A DNA stretch of 64,000 bases from Phycisphaerales bacterium (lineage in GTDB: Bacteria; Planctomycetota; Phycisphaerae; Phycisphaerales; SM1A02): assembly GCA_022446885.1 (NCBI GenBank), contig JAKVBU010000015.1:1-64000 (forward strand). The letters are read 5' to 3'. A program made the position numbers and the translations under genes. The notes under the pieces are model-generated. The model did not search any database. It was not told where the DNA came from and saw nothing but the letters and a program-made list of their open reading frames with translations. Shown in pieces: positions 3,353-18,800 of the stretch. How positions within the stretch are numbered: position 1 is the first letter of the stretch; each line of letters begins with the position of its first letter.

Positions 3353-4176
3353 CTGGAGTGCTCATCCTTCGTTGGCAATGGAGCTGCCCCGGACGGGGGT
3401 CTTGTACAGGCTACGCGGAACCCGGCGAAGGGGGCGTCCGAGAGCCACCAGATGCTCTTGGGAATCTGCGGATCGGTGTCATTCCAGGCCGGTGTGGGCT
3501 CTTTACGCTCAGTTGGGGTCTGAAACTCAGCCGTCTGCTTGAAATGCCCCCCCATGAGCACCATATCTGTCTCCGGGCCGACTTCGACTTGGCACCACTC
3601 AGAGACATTGCCGTGGAGATCGTGCAGGCCATTGGCGTCGGCCTTTTTGGTCGTCACCTTCTGGGTCTTGCGTCGGGAGTTGCCCTTATGCCAAGCGTGA
3701 TCGTCGAGCGTCTCAGGGGTCACGCCCGAGGTTTTGGCCAGGCGGGTCCACTCTTCCACCGTCGGAATCCGGAATGACCCGTCCACCTTGGCGCCCAGCC
3801 ACGTGCAGAATGCTCTCGCTCCGTTTGATGACACACTCAATGCGGGGTGCCCCGCGTGCCCCCAGCCTCGGTCAGCCATGATGTAGGGCTTGGTTGGGCG
3901 GGTAAGACCATCGGTAGGCTCAACTGCAGGGTCTTCCTGATCAAGTCGGTAGACCATGGCGTCGTAGAGATCCCAGGTGGTTTCGTCGCGTGCGACCCAC
4001 AGTGGCGGGGCGCCGTCGGGAACATCCACAGGCACAAAAACCATCTTCACGGCACTGCCCGGTACAGTGATGCTGAATGCACCGATCTGGTCGGGGGCGT
4101 CCCCGGGAGGCTGTGACGAAGGGTCGGCGATGGAGGTCGAGGTGATCAGGGCTAAAGTTGTCAGCACTGTACGCAT
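3349..4176 (-). CDS. Formylglycine-generating-enzyme-like (SUMF1/EgtB/PvdO family) secreted protein
   Basis: 275 residues from the ATG at 4176, preceded by AGGA with 8-nt spacing. A longer open frame exists upstream but has no signal or ribosome site. The N-terminus MRTVLTTLALITSTSIA is a Sec signal peptide. Family blocks in order are KMVFVPV, LWVARDETTWDLYDAMVYR, FRIPTVEEWTRLAKTSG, DLHGNVSEWC, MGGHFKQTA and APFAGFRVAC. True FGE enzymes use a pair of active-site Cys residues in the C-terminal region. I do not see a clear CxxxxC pair here, so a non-catalytic or lectin-like FGE-fold role is equally possible. It is the first gene of the minus-strand operon. Its first 12 codons lie opposite those of apbE. 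Confidence 0.85.
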   Translation of the reverse strand: MRTVLTTLALITSTSIADPSSQPPGDAPDQIGAFSITVPGSAVKMVFVPVDVPDGAPPLWVARDETTWDLYDAMVYRLDQEDPAVEPTDGLTRPTKPYIMADRGWGHAGHPALSVSSNGARAFCTWLGAKVDGSFRIPTVEEWTRLAKTSGVTPETLDDHAWHKGNSRRKTQKVTTKKADANGLHDLHGNVSEWCQVEVGPETDMVLMGGHFKQTAEFQTPTERKEPTPAWNDTDPQIPKSIWWLSDAPFAGFRVACTRPPSGAAPLPTKDEHSR

Positions 4177-5110
4177 TGCGGCCATCCTAGTGGTGCTGGC
4201 GCAGACAGTGGGGTGTAGCACGGGGAACTTCCGTCGTTTCGAGTTCGCCCGTATGCGAATGGGCACGGACGCTCGAATCACCATTTGGACAACGGCCGAT
4301 GAGTCCCGCGCGGCCGAAGTTGCAGATGCCGCATTCGAGCGGATCGCACAGGTCGAAGAAGAAACCAGCGACTGGCTGACGCATGGCATCATTGCCCAAC
4401 TCCGAGATGCCACCGGAGGCGAGCCCATCAGGCTGCGGGGCGATCTATTGACGGCGATGGAGACAGCCTGGCCGATCGTCGAACTGACGCATGGTGCCTT
4501 CGATCCGGCCTGCGGGCGGCTGACGATGTTGTGGCGAGAGGCACGTGCAGAGGGGGTGCCGCCATCAGACGCTCAACTGAGGGCCGCAGCGGCCGACAGC
4601 GGCTGGGCTCGCCTGCAGTTTGACCCACGACGATCGACGATCACGCCCGAGCAGTCGGTGCCTTGGCTCGACTTCGGAGGGCTGGCCAAGGGACTTGCTG
4701 CGGATGCGGCATTGGAACTGCTGCGTGACAAGGGGATGCCGCGATCACTGGTCAATGTCGGCGGTGACATAGCCGCCGGTGACGCGCCGCCAGATCAGGC
4801 TGGTTGGTACATCGCCGGCCCGATCAAGGCGGACGGTTCAAAGGGGGCCGCCCACGTACTCACTCGAGCGGGCATCGCCACGTCGGGTTCGACGTATCTG
4901 CACATGGATGTTGAGGGCCGCCGACTCTCTCACGTGATCAATCCCAAGACGGGGGCCGCGGTGGAGTCACGTGCTCAGTTTACGGTGACAGCGCCTACTG
5001 CAGCCGAGGCTGATGCGCTGGCAAGCGCCGCCTGTGTTGTCGGCGTCGATGCCTTGCGCAAGATGCTTCGCGACCACGGCGTGCGGTACATCGTTGACGT
5101 CTCGCCCTGA
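4142..5110 (+). CDS. apbE: FAD:protein FMN transferase lipoprotein (ApbE family)
   Basis: 322 residues from a GTG at 4142, chosen because GGAGG (4132-4136) sits 5 nt upstream and because it gives a proper lipoprotein signal ending in the lipobox LAQTVGC. The mature part has ApbE hallmarks: MRMGTDARITIW, ELTHGAFDPACGRL, WLDFGGLAKGLAADAAL, LVNVGGDIAAG, IATSGSTYLH and SHVINPKTG. ApbE enzymes attach FMN to Thr/Ser of flavoproteins such as Nqr/Rnf subunits outside the cytoplasmic membrane, using FAD and Mg2+. No acceptor flavoprotein is encoded nearby. The gene is monocistronic and divergent from the FGE operon, with overlapping 5' ends. ATG 4130 is an alternative start. Confidence 0.9.
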   Translation: MIRAKVVSTVRIAAILVVLAQTVGCSTGNFRRFEFARMRMGTDARITIWTTADESRAAEVADAAFERIAQVEEETSDWLTHGIIAQLRDATGGEPIRLRGDLLTAMETAWPIVELTHGAFDPACGRLTMLWREARAEGVPPSDAQLRAAAADSGWARLQFDPRRSTITPEQSVPWLDFGGLAKGLAADAALELLRDKGMPRSLVNVGGDIAAGDAPPDQAGWYIAGPIKADGSKGAAHVLTRAGIATSGSTYLHMDVEGRRLSHVINPKTGAAVESRAQFTVTAPTAAEADALASAACVVGVDALRKMLRDHGVRYIVDVSP

Positions 5111-5130
5111 TCTGACAGTTTGGCAATGGG

Positions 5131-5145
5131 CTGCCGCTGCGGCAG
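5131..5145. promoter_or_regulatory. Candidate enhancer dyad CTGCC-N5-GGCAG upstream of hsp20-A
   Basis: A perfect 5-bp dyad, CTGCC gctgc GGCAG. It is centred about 142 bp upstream of the -24 GG of the sigma-54-like promoter at 5278. The same TGCC-N5-GGCA dyad precedes the hsp20-B and dnaK promoters. A role as activator binding site is an inference. Confidence 0.45.
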
Positions 5146-5277
5146 AGGCCCCGATTGCAACTGCGTGGCGACCGATTTGACGCTGTTTTTTCGTTCACTC
5201 CAAATCAGCTTGAACCAACGGTGGCAGTCGGGCACTTGAGCGATGGGGGTCAAACCAGCTTGATTGGGCGTTCGTGT

Positions 5278-5294
5278 TTGGCACGCGGCTTGTT
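5278..5294 (+). promoter_or_regulatory. Candidate sigma-54 (-24/-12) promoter of hsp20-A
   Basis: TTGGCACG-CGGC-TTGTT. The -24 element matches the sigma-54 consensus fully. The -12 element has TTGT instead of TTGC. The 10-bp spacing between the GG and the -12 G is canonical. It predicts a leader of about 277 nt before the hsp20-A start codon. The rest of the 5111-5580 gap contains no credible gene. Confidence 0.5.
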
Positions 5295-5341
5295 CCTGTT
5301 GATGCAGGCTCGGCGCGTGCCGGGCAACGAACGCAACGGCA

Positions 5342-5455
5342 GTGACGGAAGGTTCGCCCGCATGTACTCGACCACGCTCACCGACGCGACGCCGGCAACA
5401 GGCCTTCAGATTGAACGCCGAACACGGACCGGGTACCGAGTGGGCCTTCCGTCAC
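5342..5455 (+). promoter_or_regulatory. Structured 5' leader of hsp20-A closed by an 11-bp stem
   Basis: GTGACGGAAGG at 5342-5352 is perfectly complementary to CCTTCCGTCAC at 5445-5455. A shorter inner pairing (ACTCG 5366-5370 with CGAGT 5437-5441) is possible. The element lies inside the predicted long leader and could be a structured RNA switch. No known riboswitch or thermosensor class is recognised. Confidence 0.35.
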
Positions 5456-5508
5456 GGAAGCCAACTGTTCTCAATACAGGACATCGCACCTGATCGGCCG
5501 ACCCCCCG

Positions 5509-5529
5509 CATCCCCGAAGGTCGGGGATG
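5509..5529 (+). promoter_or_regulatory. 9-bp hairpin in hsp20-A leader
   Basis: CATCCCCGA-agg-TCGGGGATG forms a perfect 9-bp stem with a 3-nt loop, about 50 nt before the ATG. No U-tract follows, so it is more likely a leader structure than a terminator. The ribosome site AAGGAG follows at about 5567, outside the stem. Confidence 0.45.
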
Positions 5530-5580
5530 GAGGGGCCGTGCGACTAAAGCGGCGTCCACAACCAGGCAAGGAGCATTGCC

Positions 5581-6435
5581 ATGGCTGTCAAGATTCAGGT
5601 CAAGGACGGATTCGACACCAACACCAACTGCTGTGGATTGGGTGTCGCCCCATTGACCAACGCCTACCAGAACATTCCGATGTTGAACAACACGTTCAGT
5701 GGCTACAACAACAGTGTCCAGAACTGGCCCGTGTCGGCACATCGGACCCTCGGCGATCTTGGTGTCTGGAACACCACCTCATTCGCACCCGCACTGGAAA
5801 CCCGCGGCGCTCATCTGATGGCGCGGACTTCCCTCGGGGCTACTCAGCTCAACGAGGTCATTGCGAACATCAGCATGATCGACCCAGTGCTCGCTACTTC
5901 CATCGCCAGCATCAGCCGCCGCTGCGTGGCAACGGGTCTTCGCATTGCCCGAATCGCTTCGTTCGATCTTGAGTTGGCCCGCAACATCGTGCGTGTGGCC
6001 GAGATCGACCTGATCGCAGCCGCCTCACTCTCGGATCTGGCGATCGTCAACCCCGTGGCTGCCCGCCTGCAACTGCAGCATGTTGAGGCCGTGGAGTTCG
6101 GCCAGATCCCCAGCCGCATCGCCCCCAACGTGTTCGCCACGGTCAAGGACGAGGGTGATGTGTACCGAATCGTCGCTCGAGTTCCCGGTGCCACAGCCGA
6201 GACGATTGACGTCACCGTTCGCAACGGAAAGCTGATCATCAAGGCCAAGTCTGAGACGCTGGCCTCGAACAGCCTCCAGAGTGTCTGGCGTCAAGAGTTC
6301 GCGATCGGCCAGGACGTGAGCATCGATGCGATTGACGCGACCATCATCAATGGCACGCTCAACGTGCTGCTGCCCAAGGCCGCCGTGGTTCGCAACATGG
6401 TCGGCCAGCGAATGCAGGAAGTCGCGGTGTGCTGA
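5581..6435 (+). CDS. Hsp20/alpha-crystallin protein with long N-terminal extension (hsp20-A)
   Basis: 284 residues, about twice the usual small heat-shock protein length. The last 100 or so residues form an alpha-crystallin domain (NVFATVKDEGDVYRIVARVP, then TIDVTVRNGKLIIKAKSE, then INGTLNVLLPKA). The first 180 residues match no family I recognise. They are Asn/Cys-containing at the start (DTNTNCCGLG), then alanine-rich and probably helical (LASISRRCVATGLRIARIA, ARNIVRVAEIDLIAAASLSD). A good AAGGAG site precedes the ATG. Small Hsps hold unfolding proteins until DnaK refolds them. The extension could set oligomerisation or target choice (inference). It is followed by a strong hairpin and then two more hsp20 genes. 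Confidence 0.85.
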   Translation: MAVKIQVKDGFDTNTNCCGLGVAPLTNAYQNIPMLNNTFSGYNNSVQNWPVSAHRTLGDLGVWNTTSFAPALETRGAHLMARTSLGATQLNEVIANISMIDPVLATSIASISRRCVATGLRIARIASFDLELARNIVRVAEIDLIAAASLSDLAIVNPVAARLQLQHVEAVEFGQIPSRIAPNVFATVKDEGDVYRIVARVPGATAETIDVTVRNGKLIIKAKSETLASNSLQSVWRQEFAIGQDVSIDAIDATIINGTLNVLLPKAAVVRNMVGQRMQEVAVC

Positions 6436-6464
6436 TCAGGCAACGAGCGACATGAGGCGCATCC

Positions 6465-6500
6465 AGGCGGGCGGTCTCCAATGCAGGAGGCCGCCCGCCT
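6465..6500 (+). terminator. 15-bp hairpin after hsp20-A
   Basis: AGGCGGGCGGTCTCC pairs with GGAGGCCGCCCGCCT (15 bp with one G-U pair, 6-nt loop). Only a weak pyrimidine stretch follows, so this is a terminator or a transcript-stabilising hairpin. It separates hsp20-A from the promoter of hsp20-B. Confidence 0.6.
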
Positions 6501-6513
6501 GCCCTTCTGGCAA
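6499..6513. promoter_or_regulatory. Candidate enhancer dyad CTGCC-N5-GGCAA upstream of hsp20-B
   Basis: CTGCC cttct GGCAA carries the TGCC-N5-GGCA dyad. Its centre is about 68 bp upstream of the -24 GG at 6574, almost the same spacing as at dnaK (about 70 bp). Its core CTGCC-N-TTCT-GGCA is identical in the dnaK copy. Confidence 0.5.
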
Positions 6514-6572
6514 GTGGCCGCCATCGGGGCAGCAGGCGCCCCGACCAAGTGCATGGAGAACGCTGCCCGCAG

Positions 6573-6588
6573 TGGCATGCCACTTGCT
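6573..6588 (+). promoter_or_regulatory. Candidate sigma-54 (-24/-12) promoter of the hsp20-B/hsp20-C operon
   Basis: TGGCATG-CCAC-TTGCT has one mismatch from the consensus -24 and a perfect -12, with 10 bp between GG and GC. It predicts a leader of about 55 nt. The element overlaps a 14-bp palindrome (6571-6584) and lies inside an ATGGAGAA/TTCTCCAT inverted repeat (6553-6560, 6588-6595), which could bind a further regulator. Confidence 0.6.
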
Positions 6589-6654
6589 TCTCCATAGATG
6601 GGCGACCGTGGTGGCCGCCCGGAAACAAGTACCTGCATCACACGGAGGTGTGCC

Positions 6655-7116
6655 ATGACAATGAGTCTCCCCACAGCCACCCACGCGACCGTCGATACGG
6701 TTCGCCATGAGTTTGATCGTGTGCTCGACCGACTGATGGCTCCTGCAATGGCCCTTTCCATGGGTCTGATGGACCACATGGGTGTTCGAGCCCATCCCGC
6801 TTTCAACATCATTGAGAATGATGACTCACTCATCATCGAAGCCGAGCTCCCAGGCGTAGCGGCCCACAATCTCGATGTGACAGTGACCGACGGCGTACTG
6901 ACAGTGTCCGGCCGGCGCACGACCGAACCGCTGGACCAATCTGAAACGACGATGCTGCGGCATGAGCGCAGAAGCATGACGTTCGAGCGATCGATTCGTC
7001 TGCCTGAAGCGGTTCATCACGAAGGCATGGATGCCGTGCTCGAAGACGGCGTGTTGACCATCACGCTGGCCAAGGCACATCACGCATGCACTCGGCGGAT
7101 CGAAGTCCGCAATTGA
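6655..7116 (+). CDS. Hsp20/alpha-crystallin small heat-shock protein (hsp20-B)
   Basis: 153 residues from the ATG at 6655, preceded by a GGAGG-type site (cacggaggtg). It is a classical bacterial class A-like small Hsp: an N-terminal helical arm (HEFDRVLDRLMAPAMALSMG), then a full alpha-crystallin domain (AFNIIENDDSLIIEAELPGV, VTVTDGVLTVSGRR, FERSIRLPEAV, VLEDGVLTITLAKA). It lacks a clear C-terminal I-x-I/V tail beyond RRIEV. It lies 17 bp upstream of hsp20-C and shares the sigma-54-like promoter. Confidence 0.95.
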   Translation: MTMSLPTATHATVDTVRHEFDRVLDRLMAPAMALSMGLMDHMGVRAHPAFNIIENDDSLIIEAELPGVAAHNLDVTVTDGVLTVSGRRTTEPLDQSETTMLRHERRSMTFERSIRLPEAVHHEGMDAVLEDGVLTITLAKAHHACTRRIEVRN

Positions 7117-7133
7117 AGCACTGGAGGATTGCC

Positions 7134-7529
7134 ATGAACAACACGAACAACAACAACGTCATCGACGTCTGCGAGCAGTCTGACTGCTGCAAACGGCCGC
7201 AAAACTATCGTGCCTCAGTTGACGTCATCGAGTCTTCAGACGCATGGACGGTCGTAGCGGACATGCCCGGGTCCTCGTCAGAGGCGATCACGATCTCACT
7301 TGAAGACAACACGCTCACGATCGACGCCGCCGTGGCCGATCGGCTGGCTGCGAAAGGACGGGTTCGACGCCAGGAGTACGGCGTTGGAGACTTCCACCGG
7401 TCCTTCCGGGTCGGATCAGGCATCGATGGCGACGCCATTGAGGCCACCTATCGAGATGGTGTGCTGGAAGTGCTGCTTCCCAAATCGTCAGCAGTCAAGG
7501 GACGCCGCATCGACGTACGCACGGCATGA
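7134..7529 (+). CDS. Hsp20/alpha-crystallin small heat-shock protein (hsp20-C)
   Basis: 131 residues from the ATG at 7134 (TGGAGG upstream). It begins with an Asn-rich stretch and a Cys cluster (DVCEQSDCCKRP), then an alpha-crystallin domain (ASVDVIESSDAWTVVADMPG, ITISLEDNTLTIDAAVADR, FHRSFRVGSGIDGDAIEATY, YRDGVLEVLLPK). It is the second gene of the hsp20-B operon. The N-terminal Cys cluster, echoed by CC in hsp20-A and CC/C in the DnaK tail, is unusual for small Hsps and may be metal- or redox-responsive (inference). Confidence 0.94.
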   Translation: MNNTNNNNVIDVCEQSDCCKRPQNYRASVDVIESSDAWTVVADMPGSSSEAITISLEDNTLTIDAAVADRLAAKGRVRRQEYGVGDFHRSFRVGSGIDGDAIEATYRDGVLEVLLPKSSAVKGRRIDVRTA

Positions 7530-7618
7530 GGCCGCGTGATGATGGCCCGGGCTCACCATGACTGTGTGCCCGGGCCCCCGTCCAGATTGGAGCAATGGCT
7601 TGGAGTTAGGATTCTTGA

Positions 7619-8215
7619 ATGGACCAAGCTTCAACCACACAACGCTCCGACCTCCGCATTGACATTCGTGACGCGCTTCGCCGCAACAGAGGTCTGCTTT
7701 GGGTGGAGGGATTCGCCCTTCTGCTGGGTGGTATCGCCGCGATCATCTTCCCAGTGGCAGGCGGTATGGCGTTGGAGACGCTCATCGCCGTCATCGCTCT
7801 GGTAGCGGGCGCTGCGACGCTTGTCCGCTGCTGCACTGGCGGATTCGAGCATGTTGGATCTGCGCTTGCCACTGGCGTGCTCTCAATGGCCCTCGGTGCA
7901 GCGCTGTTGCTCTGGCCGATCGAAGGCCTGGAAGCGCTCGTTCTTATCCTGGCTGCATTCTGTCTGATCCGGGGTATCGCGGACGTGATCGGAAGCCCGG
8001 CCCGATCGAAAGTGGCACCTGTGTTGCAGGTCATCTCGGGTGTTGCAGGCATTGTGATCGCCGCGCTACTGCTGATCTGGTTCCCGACCGATGCCCTCTG
8101 GGCACCAGGCCTGCTCTTTGGAATCGAGTTGGTGTTTCTGTCACTGCCTGTCTTGGCCGTGGCCAACGCGGTGTCCAGCACGCCGGCCGGGGCGGTCGAG
8201 ACAAGTTCGGATTGA
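7619..8215 (+). CDS. HdeD-like (DUF308) membrane protein
   Basis: 198 residues with six predicted hydrophobic segments (for example FALLLGGIAAIIFPVAGG and LIAVIALVAGAATLV) and no enzymatic motif. Pattern and length fit the HdeD/DUF308 family. E. coli HdeD is tied to acid resistance at high cell density, but its biochemical activity is unknown. It follows the small Hsp genes by 89 bp, probably in the same stress operon, and converges with the sigma factor gene 3 bp away. An AGG site lies 8 nt before the ATG. Confidence 0.88.
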   Translation: MDQASTTQRSDLRIDIRDALRRNRGLLWVEGFALLLGGIAAIIFPVAGGMALETLIAVIALVAGAATLVRCCTGGFEHVGSALATGVLSMALGAALLLWPIEGLEALVLILAAFCLIRGIADVIGSPARSKVAPVLQVISGVAGIVIAALLLIWFPTDALWAPGLLFGIELVFLSLPVLAVANAVSSTPAGAVETSSD

Positions 8216-8218
8216 GGG

Positions 8219-9061
8219 TCAGGAGGCCCGCCGACGCTCGAACATGGCTCGGAGGCGTGTGAGCGCCTGTTGCTCAATCTGGCGAATGCGCTCGCGAGTC
8301 AGGCCCAATTCACGTCCGGCTTCCTTGAGCGTTCGCGGTGGGCGGCCATCAAGTCCAAATCTCATGCTGAGCACCTTGGCGGAGGCTGCATCGAATTGCT
8401 GCAGCGAGCCGCGGACAGCATCCATCGCATCTCGAAACTCAACCTCGCTCGTGGCGGCTCGGTGACGGCACTGGGCTGACTCGATCGCGGTTGGGTGGTC
8501 GCTGTCTTCGCTCCATCCGCCGCCGGAGACTCGACCAGAGGTGCCCAGCGTTCGGTGAATGAGCGACAGTTTGGACCGGGGCACGCCCATTGCATCGGCC
8601 ATCTCCGTGGGCGTCGGAGCGCGTCCGTTGCGCTCTTGAAGCTCATGGAGTGTTCGATCCCAGCGGGCCATCCGTTGGCGCATGTACGCGGGGATGTGCA
8701 TGGGGGGGCCGGCTTCCTCGACCAGTTGCTTGACCGTCTTGCGAATCCACCACGTGGCATAGGTGGAGAATCGGTGGCCAAGTGCGGGGTCGAATCGTTC
8801 GACGGCCCTGATCAGGCCGATGTTGCCCTCATTGATCAGGTCCTGAAGCGGAACGCCGCGACCCAGATATCGCTTTGAGATGTTCACAACAAGTCGGAGG
8901 TTGGCCTGGATCATTCGGCGGCGAGATGACTCGCAATTGTCGTTGATCACCTGCCATGCCAGCTGACGTTCTTCCAGTGGCGTGAGCAGGGGGACACGGG
9001 AGATTTCCCTGTAGTAGGTGTCGAGATCGCTGACGGGCCTCGAGGATCTGGAGGAGGTCAT
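8219..9061 (-). CDS. RNA polymerase sigma-70 family factor (group 2-like)
   Basis: 280 residues with sigma regions 1.2 (DLDTYYREISRVPLLTPLEE), 2 (NLRLVVNISKRYLGRGVPLQ, NEGNIGLIRAVERFDPALG, FSTYATWWIRKTV), 3 (IPAYMRQRMARWDRTL) and 4 with the HTH (KEAGRELGLTRERIRQIEQQ). It has no long non-conserved region, so it is a non-essential group 2 type, like RpoS/SigB-C, and not the main RpoD. The ATG at 9061 has an AGGA site upstream. It lies downstream of the ClC gene on the same strand and converges with hdeD-like, which suggests a stress sigma factor (inference). Confidence 0.95.
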   Translation of the reverse strand: MTSSRSSRPVSDLDTYYREISRVPLLTPLEERQLAWQVINDNCESSRRRMIQANLRLVVNISKRYLGRGVPLQDLINEGNIGLIRAVERFDPALGHRFSTYATWWIRKTVKQLVEEAGPPMHIPAYMRQRMARWDRTLHELQERNGRAPTPTEMADAMGVPRSKLSLIHRTLGTSGRVSGGGWSEDSDHPTAIESAQCRHRAATSEVEFRDAMDAVRGSLQQFDAASAKVLSMRFGLDGRPPRTLKEAGRELGLTRERIRQIEQQALTRLRAMFERRRAS

Positions 9062-9240
9062 GCGGCGTTTCCTGATGGCACATCACAGTCGCATTCCGAC
9101 GAAGCGGCCTTCGCTGGTCATGCTCTTTCGGGCGGTGGAATGTGCGTGGAAGGGGAGAGGAGAGAGAGGTCGATCTGGCGGGTGCAGTCACACCCGACCA
9201 TCCATCTACGGGGCTGCCGCCCTCAGGTTCGGTTCGAATC

Positions 9241-10851
9241 TCAGTTCGACGAATCCTGTTGTCGGCGGACTCTCGCCAGGAACTGTTCCGCCAGAGCCTC
9301 GTAGATTGCCTTTCGGCACACCAGATGTGAGCACTCATAGGCGATGATCGCGGTAGCCATGAGTGGCAACGTGACGAATCTCGCGTCGGTCATTTCGATC
9401 ATGATCACAAAGACGGTGATCGGGCTCTGCACCACCCCGGCGAAATAGGCCACCATGAACAACATGATCACAAACTGCGGTTGCAGGTCGTCAAACCAGC
9501 CGCTGAAGAGATCGGCGCATGCATTTCCCAGCCCAGCGCCGACCGAGAGGCTGGGATCAAACAGCCCTCCGGGTATGCCACTGATCAGGGTGAAGAAGGA
9601 CCCGCCAGCCTTGGCAACCGGGTACCACCATGGATAGTCGCCTTGGTCGAGATGCCAGGTGTCGTAGAAGTCGCGTTCGTCAGGATCGGCCAGCACTCTC
9701 CAGGCTGTCTGAATGCTCAGGTGTTTGTCATCCAGACTGCCGTCGGTGGTGAGTAGTGGGTGGGCTGCATTGTGCTGCTTATATGCCGTTTCAATCTCGG
9801 CATGGGTGGCAGCTCGATCCACGCCCAGCAATTCGTAGAAATCGGTTCCCCGGTACATGAGGATGGCCTTGGCTTGGGGATAGCCGCTGCCATAGGACTG
9901 CCCCTGCGACGCCAGACCGATGAGCGCAAGCGTGGCTCCCAATGCCAAGCCGGTGAGCCATGGATGTCGCCCGCAGCACCGAGTGATCTTGGGTGTTCCC
10001 CAGACCACACTGCGAGCAAACAGCCCACCGAGTGTGCCGCCGATCATGGCGATCACGGGAACGGCGATCCAGTGGATCAGACCAAATCCATAGTGCCGAT
10101 TGATGGCGCCATAGAAGAGGTAGTCCCATCCCAACAGACCCACGACCACCAGCGATGCGATCAGCACCGTACGGACAACGGTTGCGGCGCTGCGTTTGTC
10201 AAAGCACCGTCCGATCTCTTCAAAGGCGAAGACCATGCCCGCGATGGGGGCGTTGAAGGCCGCGGCGATACCCGCCCCGCCGCCGCCAAGAATCAACCCA
10301 CGCTGCACGAGATGGTCCGGCAGTTTGCGGAATTTTGACACCAAGTACATGGCGCACGCCCCGACATGTACAGATGGCCCTTCGCGACCGATGGTCGGCC
10401 CGGTAAACAGCCCCATCGCAAGAAGGAGCGACTTGCCGATGGCAATCCGAACGGACAGCATCCGCCGCCGAATGGGCCCGTCTTTCACATGCAGCGCCGC
10501 GATGGCTTGGGGAATGCCCGTGCCCTCCGTACCTGGGAAGTACTTGTCGCGAAGCCGCATGATGCAGGCCATCGAGATCGTGATCGTGCCCATGGCAATG
10601 AGCACACCTGCGGACGGGTCGATCTGGAGGCCCCACAGTGCCCTCTCGCCCTGTAGGAAGCGGAAAAATGCCAGCCCTTCCAGATCCAGCCAGCGAAACA
10701 GCCAGGCCGCCAGCCCTGCAACCACCGCAGCCACGATCAGCCAGAAGTAGGTGGGCCAGGCGGACCAAGTGAAAACGTCGGTCCTGATGGCCTCCTTTGT
10801 GGTGGCCGGTTCAGGATCAAGCTCGGTCTGCGGCTGGTGAGAATCGGCCAT
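9241..10851 (-). CDS. ClC-family chloride/proton antiporter with inserted J-domain-like module
   Basis: 536 residues from the ATG at 10851 (GAGGG site 7 nt upstream). Ion-pathway motifs are intact: EGTGIPQAIAALH (GSGIP type), IGREGPSVHVG with the gating Glu, the FEEIGR proton Glu pair, and SGIPGGLFDPSLSVGAGLG. These mark a Cl-/H+ exchanger. Between SGYPQAKAIL and the PWWYPVAKAGGSFFTL helix lies a module of about 64 residues (337-400) that reads like a DnaJ J-domain: DFYELLGVDRAATHAEIETA, then YKQHNAAHP, then IQTAWRVLADPDERDFYD. The HPD tripeptide is HPL. Normal ClC proteins have a short loop here. No CBS domains are present. The gene is flanked by stress genes; E. coli ClcA supports acid resistance. 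Confidence 0.95.
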   Translation of the reverse strand: MADSHQPQTELDPEPATTKEAIRTDVFTWSAWPTYFWLIVAAVVAGLAAWLFRWLDLEGLAFFRFLQGERALWGLQIDPSAGVLIAMGTITISMACIMRLRDKYFPGTEGTGIPQAIAALHVKDGPIRRRMLSVRIAIGKSLLLAMGLFTGPTIGREGPSVHVGACAMYLVSKFRKLPDHLVQRGLILGGGGAGIAAAFNAPIAGMVFAFEEIGRCFDKRSAATVVRTVLIASLVVVGLLGWDYLFYGAINRHYGFGLIHWIAVPVIAMIGGTLGGLFARSVVWGTPKITRCCGRHPWLTGLALGATLALIGLASQGQSYGSGYPQAKAILMYRGTDFYELLGVDRAATHAEIETAYKQHNAAHPLLTTDGSLDDKHLSIQTAWRVLADPDERDFYDTWHLDQGDYPWWYPVAKAGGSFFTLISGIPGGLFDPSLSVGAGLGNACADLFSGWFDDLQPQFVIMLFMVAYFAGVVQSPITVFVIMIEMTDARFVTLPLMATAIIAYECSHLVCRKAIYEALAEQFLARVRRQQDSSN

Positions 10852-10925
10852 CTGGGGTCCCTCAGGGGCGGTCGAGGGCAGTTGTACCCGCCCGCGTGGA
10901 TTTTTTCCTGAATCTCGAATGGACA

Positions 10926-11049
10926 GCAGGCCATGTGAATCGTCTTTTGTGGAGCAGGCAGGATGGCCTGCACCATTCCGGAACAACCTCCTCTCTCCTC
11001 TCTCCTCCCGGAGCCCCGCACTGAAAGGTGCGAGGCTCCCTTCCTTTTT
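10926..11049 (+). ncRNA. Candidate small RNA with CU-rich anti-SD stretch and intrinsic terminator
   Basis: On the plus strand, a stem GCAGGCCA (10926-10933)/TGGCCTGC (10964-10971) is followed by a 23-nt pyrimidine run with three CCTCC/CTCCT elements (10987-11009). A terminator follows: GGAGCC-c-CGCAC, loop TGAAAG, GTGCG-a-GGCTCC, then CTTCCTTTTT (11010-11049). No plus-strand gene precedes this terminator, so it most likely ends a small RNA. The unpaired CU-rich run could pair with Shine-Dalgarno sites, as in CCUCC-type small RNAs. The 5' end and promoter are not resolved. The rest of the 10852-11105 gap holds no gene. Confidence 0.45.
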
Positions 11050-11105
11050 ACTCGGCGTCGATCAACAGGCTCGACGGACACTCGGGCGTGACGGATAATG
11101 CCCAG

Positions 11106-12146
11106 ATGTCCACCACGCCTCAGTCAGCAAGGCATCATCAGCAGGCAGGCCAATCTGCCCAGCCTCGCCATCGACGTCCGCTGGGTGGGGATACCGCTCG
11201 GGGCCACGGCCGAAGCGCTCTGGTGCAGTTGGGGGATCAGGTGCTCAACAACGCCCCTGCTGGGCAGCAACTGCACCGCGGACGCAAGCCCGACTGGATC
11301 AGGGCGAAGGCCCCCGGTGGGCCGGCCTTCATCAAGTTGCGTGATGATCTTCGCAGCCGGGGGCTACACACGGTTTGTGAAGAGGCCTCCTGTCCCAACA
11401 TCGGTGAGTGCTGGGCCAGAGGAACGGCCACCATCATGATTCTTGGCGACACCTGCACCCGCTCGTGCGGGTTCTGCAACGTCAAGACCGGCAAGCCACC
11501 TGTGACTGATCTTGATGAGCCCAGGCGGGTCGCTCAGCAACTGGCCGGAAGCGGGCTCAAGCACGTGGTCATCACGTCGGTAGATCGGGATGATCTGCCA
11601 GATGGTGGGGCCGACATCTGGGCTCGGACTGTGCGGGAAGTGCACGATGCTTGTCCTGAACTCTCAGTTGAGGCCCTCGTGGGCGATTTCAAGGGCAACA
11701 AGCTCGATTTGGAGGTTGTCATCGAGTCTCGGCCCGAGATTCTGGCCCACAATCTCGAGACTGTTGAGCGGATGCACCCGGCCGTGCGGCCTCAAGCCCG
11801 CTACGACCGCTCACTGGAGGTGCTCCGGGAGATCTCTGCATCGGGCATCGTGTCCAAGACCAGCCTGATGGTCGGCATAGGCGAGACCGACGAGGAGCTC
11901 GAACAAGCCATGTTGGACGCCCGCCAGCGGGCAGATGTGGAGATCCTCACGATTGGGCAGTATCTGCAGCCCACGCCCAACCACCTGCCGGTGGATCGAT
12001 GGGTGACGCCCGATAAGTTTGAGTCGTGGAAGGGGCTCGGTCTCGCGATGGGTTATCGGGTGGTCGAGTCAGGGCCCCTCGTTAGAAGCTCCTACCACGC
12101 TGAGGCTCAGGCGGCTCGCCATGGCGATGCCACCCGCGGCAAGTAG
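11106..12146 (+). CDS. lipA: Lipoyl synthase
   Basis: LipA inserts two sulfurs into octanoyl groups on E2/GcvH proteins using radical SAM chemistry. Both cluster motifs are present: the auxiliary 4Fe-4S motif CEEASCPNIGEC and the radical-SAM motif CTRSCGFC. The family C-terminal SSYHAE (RSSYHAEAQA) is also there. The core begins at RKPDWIRAKAPGG. The 45-odd residues between the ATG at 11106 and this core are His/Gln/Arg-rich and unlike the family, so the real start may be GTG 11241 (preceded by GGGGG) or GTG 11223. No lipB is seen next to it, so octanoyl transfer must be encoded elsewhere. Confidence 0.93.
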   Translation: MSTTPQSARHHQQAGQSAQPRHRRPLGGDTARGHGRSALVQLGDQVLNNAPAGQQLHRGRKPDWIRAKAPGGPAFIKLRDDLRSRGLHTVCEEASCPNIGECWARGTATIMILGDTCTRSCGFCNVKTGKPPVTDLDEPRRVAQQLAGSGLKHVVITSVDRDDLPDGGADIWARTVREVHDACPELSVEALVGDFKGNKLDLEVVIESRPEILAHNLETVERMHPAVRPQARYDRSLEVLREISASGIVSKTSLMVGIGETDEELEQAMLDARQRADVEILTIGQYLQPTPNHLPVDRWVTPDKFESWKGLGLAMGYRVVESGPLVRSSYHAEAQAARHGDATRGK

Positions 12147-12185
12147 GCGTGCCGTCACCCTTTTATGGCGCAAGATTGTGAAAAT

Positions 12186-12198
12186 ACATGACTTATGT
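12186..12198. promoter_or_regulatory. AT-rich inverted repeat ACAT-N5-ATGT upstream of the polysaccharide locus
   Basis: This small dyad lies in the most AT-rich patch of the 12147-12444 gap (about 298 bp without a credible gene). It could be part of a promoter/operator for the Wza-like gene. No clear -35/-10 pair can be fixed. Confidence 0.25.
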
Positions 12199-12395
12199 CT
12201 AGGAAGACCGCTGCCCAGGTGAGGTGGCCTCCCCCAGAGGCACGTTCGATAGGCGGCCGATCAGGCATGGCCCGATAGGTGTCCTGCTGAGGGCACTCAG
12301 ATCGACGTTTCGAGTTCAATTCGGTCTTTGCGCGATCCTGCCAATCATGTGGTCCGTAGGGGGCCAGACGGTCGATTGGAGAACGCAGCTGCCGG

Positions 12396-12418
12396 TGCGC
12401 AATCGGGTAGATTGCGCA
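12396..12418 (+). promoter_or_regulatory. 9-bp hairpin in leader of the Wza-like gene
   Basis: TGCGCAATC-gggta-GATTGCGCA is a perfect 9-bp stem ending 26 nt before the proposed GTG start at 12445. It could be a leader structure or an operator dyad. Confidence 0.35.
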
Positions 12419-12444
12419 GCATTGGTGGCGTGGATGGTGGACAG

Positions 12445-13992
12445 GTGATCCCGTATTCAGGGTTGAGCATTGAAGTACGTACAGCAGGCCGCCTGGCGCG
12501 GTCGTTGGCTGCATTTGCGGCATTGGGTGTTGTGCTGCTGAGTACTGGCTGCGGCATGAAGGGTTTTCTGGACCCGTCCAAGACGGGGTACTTCCATAAG
12601 ACGCCCACCACGATGCCGATTCTCGACCGAATCGACGCCATCGAGCCCAGCACGAATCCATGGGGCGAAACGTCGTCGGTTACGCCGGAGGATCTGGCAC
12701 CGAATGATCTCACCTACACCCTGCATCCGGGCGACCTGGTCGACATTCAGGTGTATGAGCTTTATGAGACCCAGCGATTCCACGGCGTACAGCGACGTGT
12801 AGATCAGGGTGGATACCTCTCGATTCCAGAGGTGGGATCGGTTCCGGCGGCCGGCTACACAATCGAGCAGGTGCAGGAAGAGATCAGGCATCTGCTCAGC
12901 CAGGAAGTCATGGGCAAGCCCACGGTCAGCGTCAGCCTGGTCGAGGGCGCCGCATTCAACTACATCATCTACGGTCATGTCCCCAGTCCGGGCCGCTACA
13001 CCCTCAGTGATCCGCACCTTCGTCTGCTCGAAGGCCTGACAATGGCCGGCGGCGTGCCTCTGACCACACGCCGCGTGTACGTGGTGCGACAGGTCAACAC
13101 CGTCGAGGCGCACGAATTCAAGCCCGCAACCGGTCAGTCGCAGGCGCAGCACACATCACCTACTTCATCAGCACCTGATCTCGAGTCGCTGATCAACTCG
13201 CTCGACGACGCCCCTCGCCCGAGCCCCGGGTCGTTTCCTGATGAAGCTGCCGCACCGGTCCAGATAGAGGATCTGCACCCGGCGGACGCAACGGTCCCAA
13301 CTGTCGAGGATCTCGACGAACCCACGACAAGCTACGTATACCTCCCTGAGGAGCAGGCATGGGTTGAGGTGTCACCCGATGTGGTGCAGCGAGATCTGGC
13401 AGAAGCCGCCACAACAACCCATCCACACGGCGTCGAGCCCACAGCATCTGTAGATCCGCTTGAGTCCGCGGCCATCGATGCCGGCGACATCATTCTGGAA
13501 CGGGTGATCGAGGTCAACTACCAGCGTCTTTCCAGGGGCGAGAACGACCTGAATGTTGTGATTCGCCCCGGTGATCAGATTTACGTGGATGGCCCCCCAC
13601 AGGGCTACTACTACATCGAAGGCGAGATCAATCGCGGCGGTGTGTTTGAATTGCCCAGTACAGCCGAGCAGATCACCTTGAGTCGAGCTATCGGCGCGGC
13701 AGGCGGGCTAGGGGCGCTTGCCGTGCCCAGCCGGGTTGACCTCGTCCGCATGGTCGGAGACGGGCGTGAAGCGGCAATTCGGCTGGATCTGGGCGCTATC
13801 CGCAACAGGACCGAGCCTGACGTGTATCTGAAGCCCGGTGACCACATCATCATTGGTACCGACTTCTGGGCCTATCCGCTGGCGGTCTTTCGAAACGGCC
13901 TTCGGATGAACTACGGCTTCGGCTTCTTGCTCGATCGAAACTTCGGTAATGACGTCTTCGGTCCACCTCCGGTCAATGTGGTTGGAGGTTGA
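12445..13992 (+). CDS. Polysaccharide export lipoprotein (Wza/GfcE-like, Poly_export plus SLBB)
   Basis: 515 residues from GTG 12445; TTG 12463 is an alternative and the start is not certain. A lipoprotein signal ends in VVLLSTGC. The export domain follows (LTYTLHPGDLVDIQVYELYE, VDQGGYLSIPEVGSVPAAGY, IEQVQEEIRHLLSQ), then a SLBB unit (YIIYGHVPSPGRYTL). An acidic, Pro/Ser-rich insert of about 150 residues (around 220-370) leads to a second SLBB-like part (GDQIYVDGPPQGYYYIEGEI). The usual length is 350-380 residues, so the insert accounts for the excess. The protein likely forms the outer-membrane exit channel for the exopolysaccharide. The following exosortase gene begins about 30 bp after its stop. 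Confidence 0.9.
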   Translation: MIPYSGLSIEVRTAGRLARSLAAFAALGVVLLSTGCGMKGFLDPSKTGYFHKTPTTMPILDRIDAIEPSTNPWGETSSVTPEDLAPNDLTYTLHPGDLVDIQVYELYETQRFHGVQRRVDQGGYLSIPEVGSVPAAGYTIEQVQEEIRHLLSQEVMGKPTVSVSLVEGAAFNYIIYGHVPSPGRYTLSDPHLRLLEGLTMAGGVPLTTRRVYVVRQVNTVEAHEFKPATGQSQAQHTSPTSSAPDLESLINSLDDAPRPSPGSFPDEAAAPVQIEDLHPADATVPTVEDLDEPTTSYVYLPEEQAWVEVSPDVVQRDLAEAATTTHPHGVEPTASVDPLESAAIDAGDIILERVIEVNYQRLSRGENDLNVVIRPGDQIYVDGPPQGYYYIEGEINRGGVFELPSTAEQITLSRAIGAAGGLGALAVPSRVDLVRMVGDGREAAIRLDLGAIRNRTEPDVYLKPGDHIIIGTDFWAYPLAVFRNGLRMNYGFGFLLDRNFGNDVFGPPPVNVVGG

Positions 13993-14021
13993 GCCGATGT
14001 CATCAGCGATCTGATCGAGTC

Positions 14022-15788
14022 ATGAGCACGATGTCGACCAAAGCGCTGCTGTCCGGGCAACCGGTCAGACCCGCCGCCGCCCTCTTGGCCACGGCTGCGA
14101 TTCTTGCAATCTTCATCTGGCTGTTCTGGGCCTTCATCGAGCAGCAGGTGCGGTTTGCGATCACCAAGCAGGCCGACTGGGGGCACACTCTGGTCATTCC
14201 ATTCATCGCCGGTTGGTTCATTTGGCTCAATCGGGGGCGGATCCTGGCTGAACCTCTTCGACCCAGCCTCACCGGCCTGTTTGTCGTGTTTGCGGGCGTC
14301 GCTTGGTACAGCTTCGTGGCGTTGGGCCCTGAATACCTCCGTCATCACAATGTGATGGGCGTAGGTGTCGGGGCCGTGATATTCGGTCTCGTGCTCGCAT
14401 TCTGCGGCTGGCGGGCCATGCGATGGCTCTGGTTCCCAGTGGCATATCTGGTGATCTTCGGGCAGACCATCTCAGATCGATTCCTCGACATCGTCACATT
14501 CAAGTTGCAGGGCATCGCCACTGTCGGGGCCGAGTGGGGACTCTCCCTGATCGGGTACGAAGTCACGCGAATGGCTCACACGGTCTATATCCACCAGCCC
14601 AGTGGAGATGTGCCCGTCAACATCGCTGAAGCGTGTTCGGGCATGCGAATGTTGGTGGCCTTCTTCGCGCTCGGCGTTGCGATGGCCTATCGCGGTCTCG
14701 ACCAAGTCTGGCAACGAGTACTGCTGGTGGCCATGGCAGTGCCTACCGCAATCTTCGTGAATGTGCTGCGGGTGATGACGCTTGGTGTGCTGTCCACCTA
14801 CGACTCGGGTTTTGCCACGGGCGAGTTTCACACGATGGTCGGCATGCTCTGGCTCATTCCGGCATTTTTCATCTATCTGGGTGTGATGTGGATTCTGCGC
14901 AACCTCGTGGTGTCCGATGACGAACCTGCGGCCGAGATTGAGGAGCCCTCAGTTGATCTGAGATTCGGACCAAGGGTCAAGGCAGTGTTCATTTCAGGCG
15001 TGGCGCTGATGATCACTGCCGGAGTCGCGTTCTCGATGCTCGCCAACGCGCTGAACGTGCATCTTCGCAAGTCGCCAGTTCCGCTGCGAGACTCCCTCAG
15101 CTTGATCCCCTCCTCACTTGGAGAGTGGAATGTTGTGCATGAAGGCGCGTTCGACTCGGCAATGATCGAACAACTGGGCACTGAATTGACCATCAGTCGG
15201 TTGTATCAGGCAGGTAGTGACGGCCCGATCGTCAATTTCCACTTGGCCTACTACACCGACACGGTCGATCCGATTCCCCATGTTCCGGACCGATGCATGA
15301 TCGCGGCGGGCATGGAAGGGATCACTGCTGAACCTGAGAACCTCCAGTGGGCGTTCGAAGTCGATGGTGCCCAATCAGGCTCTCAACTCGTGCTTGACGA
15401 GGCACCGGTGGACATGGTCGAAGTGCCAGCGGTGGGGGGCGGCACCATCGATGTGCACATGCCAGCAGGCGAACCATTGCTGCGTGCGATGGAGTTCAGA
15501 GACGCTCGCCAGAGGGACAACAGGATCTGGGCGGGGTACTTTTTCATCACGAATGGGCGAATGCGACCCTCTCCCAGCGAGGTCTACAGGACGGCCTACG
15601 CTGGCAGCGAGCAGTACGCCTACTATTGCAAGGTCCAAGTCGTATTCAGTGGTGGGGGGAGTTTTGACAAGGATGAGTTCCTCCGTGTCTCCGGCGACTT
15701 TCTCTCGTTGGCGATGCCTTACATCATGAGATCACTGCCGGATTGGGCCAACGTGCTCTCTGGCAAGGACCCCCAAGTGGAGCACTGA
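14022..15788 (+). CDS. Exosortase with C-terminal EpsI domain (Xrt-EpsI fusion)
   Basis: 588 residues. The N-terminal half is a polytopic membrane protein with the exosortase catalytic triad: Cys205 in EACSGMRML, Arg250 in NVLRVMTLG and His270 in GEFHTMVGM. After the last helix (about residue 300) and one more membrane segment comes an EpsI/DUF3485 domain (SSLGEWNVVHEGAF, VNFHLAYYTDTVDPIPH, VPDRCMIAAGMEG). Exosortases process proteins carrying PEP-CTERM-like sorting tails; EpsI is linked to exopolysaccharide export. The ATG at 14022 was chosen, and TTG 13989, overlapping the previous stop after GGAGG, is an alternative. No protein in this window shows an obvious sorting tail. Confidence 0.92.
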   Translation: MSTMSTKALLSGQPVRPAAALLATAAILAIFIWLFWAFIEQQVRFAITKQADWGHTLVIPFIAGWFIWLNRGRILAEPLRPSLTGLFVVFAGVAWYSFVALGPEYLRHHNVMGVGVGAVIFGLVLAFCGWRAMRWLWFPVAYLVIFGQTISDRFLDIVTFKLQGIATVGAEWGLSLIGYEVTRMAHTVYIHQPSGDVPVNIAEACSGMRMLVAFFALGVAMAYRGLDQVWQRVLLVAMAVPTAIFVNVLRVMTLGVLSTYDSGFATGEFHTMVGMLWLIPAFFIYLGVMWILRNLVVSDDEPAAEIEEPSVDLRFGPRVKAVFISGVALMITAGVAFSMLANALNVHLRKSPVPLRDSLSLIPSSLGEWNVVHEGAFDSAMIEQLGTELTISRLYQAGSDGPIVNFHLAYYTDTVDPIPHVPDRCMIAAGMEGITAEPENLQWAFEVDGAQSGSQLVLDEAPVDMVEVPAVGGGTIDVHMPAGEPLLRAMEFRDARQRDNRIWAGYFFITNGRMRPSPSEVYRTAYAGSEQYAYYCKVQVVFSGGGSFDKDEFLRVSGDFLSLAMPYIMRSLPDWANVLSGKDPQVEH

Positions 15789-15821: not shown

Positions 15822-18800
15822 ATGGCCAAGGTCAGCAAGAAGAAGCGCAATCGCAAGAAGAAGGGCGGACGTCTCAACAAGCGTCTGCTGATGATCGTCT
15901 CACTGACGACGGTCATTGTCGTGGGAATCGCCGCCGGATTGATCTTCCTGCGGATGAAGGGTTCGGTCTCGCGGAATCTCCACGCTGGCAGAACGCATCT
16001 GCAAGACGGCAAGTGGGAGCAGGCGCAACGGGCATTCGGGCGAGTGGTCAAGAAGGATCCGGCCAATGAGGAGGGAATGAACGGCCTGATGGACGTCTAT
16101 GACAAGTGGGTCCCCGAGACGCGTGAGCATGCCAATCAACTACAGATTGCATTTGCCCAGGCGATCCTGCATGACACCGAATACCACCCCGGCGATGACG
16201 AGCGTGCGCTTCGGGCGATTGAGTTCCTTCACGAAGAAGCTCGAGCCATGAATCTCGATGGGCAGTGGGAGGCGCTACAGACGCTCGCGGACAAGGTTCA
16301 CAGCAAGTTCGGCGACGACTCTGAAGCAGGCCAGCGAGCGCTGTACTACAAAGCGTTGACAAGACTCCGGCTGGAGAGTGAGCACTTCACCCGTGATCGC
16401 GATGATGAAGGCAACGTCATCTTTCCCGGTGAGGTGGAGTTGAAGGCCTATCTCGCGCTGCGCCCCGGCGATGACGATGGAATGGCGCAACTTGCATTCG
16501 GTCGCATGGCTGTGGCCCGCCGGCTTGGTCTCGAAGAGCAATTCCAGCAGGAGAAACGAAATCTCGCTCTGGCAGAAGAGACCTTTCAAGAAGCGCTAGC
16601 GGCCAATCCTCGCGGCGTTGCGACGCAACTCTCCCATGTCAGGCACCTGATTCTGCACGAGTTGATTACAGAGGCTCGGCGGGCCCGTCAGGTTGGCACG
16701 CTCTCTTCAGAGGAGCGGGATGCCATCCTTGCAGAGTTGGCAATGAAACTCGACTTGGTCGAGGAGATGCTGCGCAGCGACCCAGACGTCAACCCCCTAT
16801 ATCTGGCCGAGTTCTTCCAGTTTGTTGAGATCGGTGACGAAGAGCGGGGCAATGAGCGCATTCGAGATCTTGCCGAGCACTATCTGAAGACCAATCCTGG
16901 TGATGATCTTCGGCGACTCGAACTGGCAGAAGCGCTGCGAAAGCTGGAAGAGTTCGACGAAGCAATGGTGCAGACGCGTGCCGTGCTTGATGCCGACGAC
17001 CGTTCCGTGGCCCACGGTGCCGCAAGGCAGCATCTCGTTCGTGCGATGGCCGCCAAGAAACTGCTTGAGATTGCCTCCGCCAAGTGGGGGCTTGCTGAGG
17101 CTGATAGTGCCAGGCGAGACGAGGCCATTGAGGATGCAACGGAAGCTCGCGATGCGCTGGTTCATCAGTTGCAGGGCGAGGAGTCAGGGCCGCTGGTGAT
17201 CGAGGCGGACGGCCGACTGGCATTCATGCGAGGCGACTATCGCGAGGCAGCACGATTGTTGGGGCAGCTTACCCGTGGCCGCACGATTTCACCCGAACTG
17301 TTGCGAATCAATGCGATGGCGCTGGACGAGATCAATCAGCCCGGTGAAGCGGCAGAACGTCTGCGCGAGGCAGTTCGATTGAACCCGGTCTCAACTTCGT
17401 CGCGGGCCATGCTGGCACGGGTATTGGCCCGAATGCGGCTGGCGGACGAAGCGTTACAGGTGCTCAGCGGCATCCCCCAAAACGTGATGGACGCCAATGC
17501 TGATATTGCGAGCCTGCAGCAGTCCATTCTCGCGATGAAGTCAATCGATCAAGGGGAGGCCGTCACAAACCTCAACAGCCCAGTGCTGATAGCGATCATG
17601 GAGGCTGACGGCTTGCAGCGTGAGGGGCGAGTTGAAGAGGCCCTTGAGGGGCTTCAGGCTGTAGTGCAAACCACGGAGGAGAGCGATGAGTTGGTGCCCG
17701 CTTTGGTGGCTGCAGCCCAATTGCACTCGTCGCTGGACCAGCAGGCCGAGGCGGCGGAGTTGATCGAACGGGCGCGGGCCATACGGCCGGATGATGATCG
17801 TCTCGAGCAGCTTGCCGTTGCGATCTCCATCGAGGATCCGATCGAGCGAATTCGCAACTGGGTAGCCCAGCAGGAGTCTGATCAAGAGAGCAGGGACGTG
17901 ATGCTCCTTGTGACATTCGACGCGTTGGCAGGCAGGCAGATGGGGCAAGCCGCGCGCCTGGATCGCATGGGTGAGGCCGCTCTTGCCGAGGAAGCCAGAC
18001 TGTTGGGCGAACGAGCAACCGCAGCCGCAGATGAACTGCGTGATCAGGTGTCCTCTTCCGCGAGTTCCGACGCTGGTGTCTTTCTGATGAAGTTCAATGC
18101 GTTGCTGCAATCGGGAGACTTGGATGAGGCTGAGGCGATGCTCTCAGAGGGCCGTGAAGCCAACGCCGATCAGGCCGGTGGTCACCTGCTTGAGTCAGAA
18201 CTCCTGATTGCCAAATACCGGCAGGCGGAGGAGGCAGGCGATCCCGCCGCCGAGGGCCTGGGCAAACGGGCGGTAGATGCGGCGCGACGAGCGACGCAGG
18301 AGTCGGACTGGCTTACCGGCGCGTGGAGACAACTGGGCCGTGTGCTGAGGTTGACCGGCGACGTTGAGGAGTCTCGTCTGGCTTGGGCTGAGGCGTGGCG
18401 TCGAAATCCGGCCGAGTCTGCAACTGTCCGGGCATACGCGCAGGTACTGCTGGAACCCGGAGGTGATCCTCTGCAGGCAGCCAAGATTCTGCGTGAGGCT
18501 GCCCGCAATGACAGATCAGACCGGACGCTGGTTGAAGACTGGCTCGCAGTAGAGGCGACTTTCGGTGACAAGGGGATCGCACTGATCGAGCGTGATCGTA
18601 TATACGAGGCCGACCCGAGCAACAGGGCGAACATGTTGCAGTACGCAAGTCTGCTGACCTCTCTGGAGCCGTCATTCGAACTACTCTCGGCGACCAATGA
18701 AGACGGGCCGATCGGGGCACGGCAGTGGTTGGGGCTCTCTGCTGACGAGCAACAGTCAGCGCTTGACGCGCTTGAAGCAACGTGGGACAAGCAGGCCCGC

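Follow-up and report, generated by a model that had tools for sequence, protein, structure and literature searches.

A J domain without an HPD motif in the L-M linker of a predicted planctomycete ClC-type Cl-/H+ exchanger

Results

The locus and its ClC gene

The window (the whole stretch of DNA analysed, 64,000 nucleotides from a Phycisphaerales bacterium) carries a predicted ClC-type Cl-/H+ exchanger gene that runs from 10851 down to 9241 as a single open frame with zero internal stops (Table 1). A longer alternative frame, with a TTG start and reaching to 10986, is also possible. Pfam assigned residues 100-507 of the protein to Voltage_CLC (E 8.9e-72), and no CBS domain was found in the protein. 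In comparisons of the full-length model with ClC structures, 3nd0, the cyanobacterial ClC Sll0855, was matched with Z 29.7 and an rmsd of 3.3 over 380 residues; identity to bacterial ClC exchangers in the structural alignment was about 22%. The model was built from seven sequences and is of modest overall confidence (pTM 0.63, mean pLDDT 61.7), with the insert described below among its better-scored parts. The initial annotation had stated that the ion-path motifs are kept, and the alignment to E. coli ClcA agrees: E157, E212 and Y517 are present, F431 is the counterpart of F357, and T111 replaces S107. Judged by its sequence, the protein is a putative Cl-/H+ exchanger that has kept its transport residues. 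A second ClC gene of the same genome, L001 (G000:C28:23020-24123, a 631-residue frame), falls outside the J-bearing group in the tree described below.

Table 1. Features of the ClC locus and of the remainder of the window (residue numbers refer to the ClC protein)
Feature	Position	Strand	Basis or remark
Hsp20-domain protein, third of the cluster	5581..6435	(+)	Neighbourhood comparison
Hsp20 small heat-shock protein	6598..7116	(+)	Conserved neighbour
Hsp20 small heat-shock protein	7086..7529	(+)	Conserved neighbour
DUF308 membrane protein	7619..8215	(+)	Belongs to the neighbourhood shared by most of the compared genomes
Sigma-70 family sigma factor, next gene downstream of ClC	8219..9061	(-)	Neighbour in J-bearing and J-less members
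ClC-type Cl-/H+ exchanger gene, predicted	9241..10851	(-)	536 residues, ATG at 10851; Pfam, full-length model
Y517, equivalent of the chloride-coordinating tyrosine Y445	9301..9303	(-)	Alignment to ClcA
Helix M, residues 410-423, just after the insert	9583..9624	(-)	DSSP on model; alignment to ClcA
Inserted J domain, residues 336-399	9655..9846	(-)	64 residues in 17/17 aligned J-bearing proteins; Pfam, Foldseek
HPD position, H364 P365 L366 L367	9751..9762	(-)	D-to-L in every member; sequences read
Helix L, residues 324-333, just before the insert	9853..9882	(-)	DSSP on model; alignment to ClcA
E212, aligned with E203, the internal proton glutamate present in exchangers	10216..10218	(-)	Alignment
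E157, aligned with E148, the external gating glutamate in E. coli ClcA	10381..10383	(-)	Alignment
Main DnaK gene of the genome	46354-48129		Within this window, some 35 kb away from ClC

A J domain between helices L and M

Within the Voltage_CLC match, residues 337-397 were matched by Pfam DnaJ (E 6.1e-9; 36.3 bits versus a curated cut-off of 27.8). The isolated segment reached 42.6 bits with the same profile, and was also matched by NCBIfam DnaJ models and by solved DnaJ structures. When folded alone, it was predicted to form the four-helix J fold, with DnaJ of T. thermophilus (4j7z, TM about 0.7) as the best Foldseek match; the full-length model likewise has a four-helix J domain, at residues 338-401. 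A J-domain insert in the ClC protein had been proposed in the initial annotation together with a DnaJ profile match and a compact helical fold, all of which were recovered, albeit with borders (9652-9843) that lie one codon off the actual ones (9655-9846). Residues 336-399 are thus a J domain by sequence and predicted fold. Relative to J-less orthologues, the added piece covers approximately residues 333-402, of which 336-399 make up a core of constant length. All 17 J-bearing proteins analysed match Pfam DnaJ, and their inserts are exactly 64 residues long despite pairwise identities of 31-77%. Fourteen insert positions are invariant among them, mostly in the core of the J fold, and the net charge of the insert is negative in every one.

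On E. coli ClcA, the insertion point maps between residues of about 330 and 332. Since the J domain is flanked in the model by helices 324-333 and 410-423, it occupies the linker between helices L and M. In ClC-5 (PMC11962092) and ClC-2 (PMC7348978), tags placed within this linker were described as extracellular or luminal, and the structure of ClC-1 has it on the outside (PMC10604815). By homology with these proteins, the J domain of the window ClC should be periplasmic, in which case it could not meet cytosolic DnaK.

Loss of the Hsp70-contact surface

Where DnaJ has HPDR, the motif that co-chaperones carry between helices II and III, the segment has HPLL, so the HPL reading first given for this motif was correct. 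The position of D35 in E. coli DnaJ is occupied by Leu in all 17 inserts, H33 is retained in one of them and P34 in six, and the inserts are one residue short before this site; HPD is present in none of the J-bearing ClC members. The DnaK contacts have been given as R22, K26, R27, K48 and K51 in addition to HPD, and the same paper states that stimulation was lost in all systems examined when the H of this motif was changed to Q or its D to N (PMC8215388). Among the inserts, the position of K51 is acidic in 14 of 17, that of K48 is mostly hydrophobic, those of R22, K26 and R27 are mostly non-basic, and that of K62 is Glu throughout. With HPD gone and the basic contact residues mostly lost or reversed across the clade, the early doubt about Hsp70 stimulation was well placed. 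Two ordinary J proteins of the same genome (DnaJ and a CbpA-like protein) retain HPD. A second, shorter Hsp70-like frame lies on contig C25 of this genome.

Distribution and origin of the insert

Once duplicates were dropped, the insert was found in 18 distinct proteins, from three genera of the window's family and from one genome of another planctomycete class; the record interrupted by a stretch of N was set aside, and the analysis used the other 17. Orthologues of the window ClC (E 1e-60 or better) occur in 50 of the 181 genomes of the family. For 17 of these 50 (genera g1, g224 and g491), the match extends over the insert; for the remaining 33 it ends at about residue 330-336, and the loops that were read have no insert. 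In the J-less orthologues, about 69 residues shorter, the end of helix L (SYGSGYPQA..IL) is followed directly by helix M, beginning with YPWHYP. At phylum level, one planctomycete from a different class yielded a protein of 74% identity that has the same insert. GTDB genomes were also scanned with two peptide patterns, MVFAFEE and AGLAAWLF, by which a J-bearing ClC lacking them would be missed; this gave further full-length copies, all from planctomycete metagenome-assembled genomes and most labelled Phycisphaerales. The initial annotation had asked whether other planctomycete ClC proteins have this insert; it is present in one clade of them. Its recurrence at the same place in independent genomes shows that it is neither chance nor an assembly artefact.

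Plasmid records held ClC relatives of less than 60% identity only, and none of those listed showed a J domain, because the matches were piecewise or too short to span the insert. The insert is absent from a ClC of Burkholderiales (L039) and from two of Clostridia (L040 and L041). A further candidate, L042, was rejected as an ordinary DnaJ-type protein.

In a maximum-likelihood tree computed from the transporter sequence with the insert cut out, all 17 J-bearing proteins form one clade (support 97/97), which speaks for one gain. One change suffices to explain the distribution of the domain, versus a mean of 13.6 under shuffled labels, and in this tree the J-bearing clade contains no J-less protein. 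On these sequences, the J domain was gained once in the ClC clade. The copy in G085 (L004/L034/L094), the genome of another class, groups beside the window's own ClC and lacks the conserved neighbourhood, its surroundings being unrelated; for these reasons, horizontal transfer suggests itself as the simplest reading of this copy.

Pairwise dN/dS was estimated at 0.14-0.76 for the insert, that is, below 1, and at 0.03-0.26 for the transporter body. The insert thus evolves faster than the body, although the values are rough because dS is near saturation for most pairs. Residues fixed in the clade and specific to it are L366 (the D35 position), T336, E392 and W399.

Gene neighbourhood

The ClC gene belongs to a block (3977-15788; also L085-L093) that contains ApbE, two to three Hsp20 genes, DUF308, the sigma-70 factor, ClC, lipoyl synthase, polysaccharide export and exosortase. 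Its order is largely conserved across the family, with local inversions and losses, whether or not the J domain is present. In G569 and G745, the J-less ClC has homologues of the lipoyl synthase, polysaccharide export and exosortase genes on one flank, and homologues of the sigma factor, DUF308 and Hsp20 genes on the other. These flanking genes match those of the window, and the J-less ClC is therefore the same gene in the same slot. The stress island named in the initial annotation was rejected as an explanation of the J domain, since J-less orthologues reside in the same Hsp20/sigma-factor island. Nothing was found on ClcA together with HdeD in papers on acid resistance. A 1710-residue open frame (15822-20954) adjoins the exosortase gene, and has homologues in the same place in relatives.

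Discussion

We consider it probable that the insert is an Hsp70-dead J fold, retained on the predicted Cl-/H+ exchanger as a cap or docking module in the periplasm. A J domain was apparently captured once by a ClC protein and then kept for a purpose other than chaperoning; its descendants have all lost the Hsp70-contact surface but retain the core and length of the J fold. The domain may provide a folded extracytoplasmic cap or docking surface that stabilises the transporter or binds a periplasmic partner. The likeliest parts of such a new contact surface would be the fixed Leu in place of Asp and the fixed T336, E392 and W399. We prefer this reading because the length and the clade-specific residues (L366, E392, W399 and T336) are fixed and the rest varies. 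A bolder version, in which the J fold acts in the periplasm as an in-built regulatory subunit, sets transporter activity by sensing the outside or by binding a partner, and uses the turn that once contacted Hsp70, with its fixed Leu, in the new contact, appears to us unlikely on present grounds.

Constraint on folding alone could account for the kept core, and the main rival to a cap or docking module is a passenger domain that recombined into a permissive loop and stayed there since its folding was harmless, with selection acting on folding alone. We regard this as a lesser possibility, yet one with several observations on its side. The L-M linker of ClC-5 tolerated an insertion of 163 residues and the protein remained functional, with reduced current (PMC11962092); the insert is under weaker constraint than the transporter body; and the same neighbourhood holds J-less orthologues. 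On the other hand, the length is unchanged in 17 diverged proteins, residues beyond the J consensus (Leu at D35, Glu at K62, T336 and W399) are fixed in the clade, and no loss of the domain within it was seen. Less probable still, and in our opinion doubtful, is a sensor or gate over the outer face that alters transport with pH, chloride or envelope stress. Its location outside the membrane domain, the negative charge of every insert, the retained exchanger residues and the nearby sigma factor, DUF308 and Hsp20 genes would all suit such a role; however, the full-length model gives no defined packing of the domain on the transporter, and the neighbourhood is identical without the domain.

A working co-chaperone that brings DnaK to the transporter is very unlikely, because the motif, the contact surface and the expected compartment are all contrary to it. 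While the J domain is clear by sequence, and the genome has two HPD-bearing J proteins besides DnaK, whose gene lies in this window, every member has lost HPD, a motif in which changes of H to Q or of D to N abolish stimulation according to PMC8215388; the basic contacts are lost or reversed, and the loop is expected across the membrane from DnaK. The initial suggestion that the insert may tie the transporter to chaperones thus finds no support, as the linker is extracytoplasmic in the ClC proteins studied, the Hsp70 contacts are erased clade-wide and J-less orthologues share the island. As for an error of assembly or gene calling, the source assemblies are fragmented and mostly metagenome-derived, but the insert recurs with the same borders and length in many independent assemblies from several genera, on contigs of up to 556 kb, which makes this explanation negligible.

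Each element has its precedents, namely ClC proteins, J domains, J folds that lack HPD and J domains outside the cytoplasm. The open-access papers searched held no example of the combination seen here, and no description of a ClC with DnaJ, or of J domains in transporter loops, was found in that literature, although a listing in the 2020 survey of bacterial J-domain proteins by Barriot et al., cited in PMC8215388, is possible. The case is a bounded one: a chaperone-recruiting fold has been moved into an ion transporter and, judging from homology, across the membrane, where its old job would be impossible. Because J-less orthologues occupy the same slot in the same family, the states before and after the gain can be compared directly. 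The protein offers an outer domain built in by nature, with which the control of ClC transport by outer loops may be studied, and a test case for uses of the J fold that are independent of Hsp70.

With the bacterial exchangers ClcA (ClC-ec1) of E. coli and Sll0855 (3nd0), the window ClC shares the fold, the helix order, both glutamates and the Tyr and Phe of the chloride site; it differs from them in the 64-residue J domain of the L-M linker and in Thr for Ser107. With the J domains of DnaJ and CbpA (Hsp40), the insert shares the four-helix fold and the core residues, but it lacks HPD and the basic DnaK-contact surface, is one residue shorter before the HPD position, and lies inside a transporter, where it is expected to be extracytoplasmic. 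Pam16/Tim16 and CPP1 likewise retain a J fold after loss of HPD; no ClC is involved there, and Pam16, whose partner is a true J protein, still acts in an Hsp70 motor. Sec63, which spans the membrane several times, carries its J domain in a loop within the ER lumen. The insert would likewise lie in an extracytoplasmic loop of a multi-pass protein, but HPD is found in Sec63 only, whose partner is BiP, the luminal Hsp70, and we know of no Hsp70 in the bacterial periplasm. The profile match between the insert and Sec63 is weak. Among animal ClC proteins with accessory subunits, ClC-5 with TMEM9 would resemble the window ClC by position only, in that an extracytoplasmic protein part touches outer ClC loops; there, it is a separate subunit on the first outer loop, whereas here it is a domain in cis within the L-M linker (PMC11962092).
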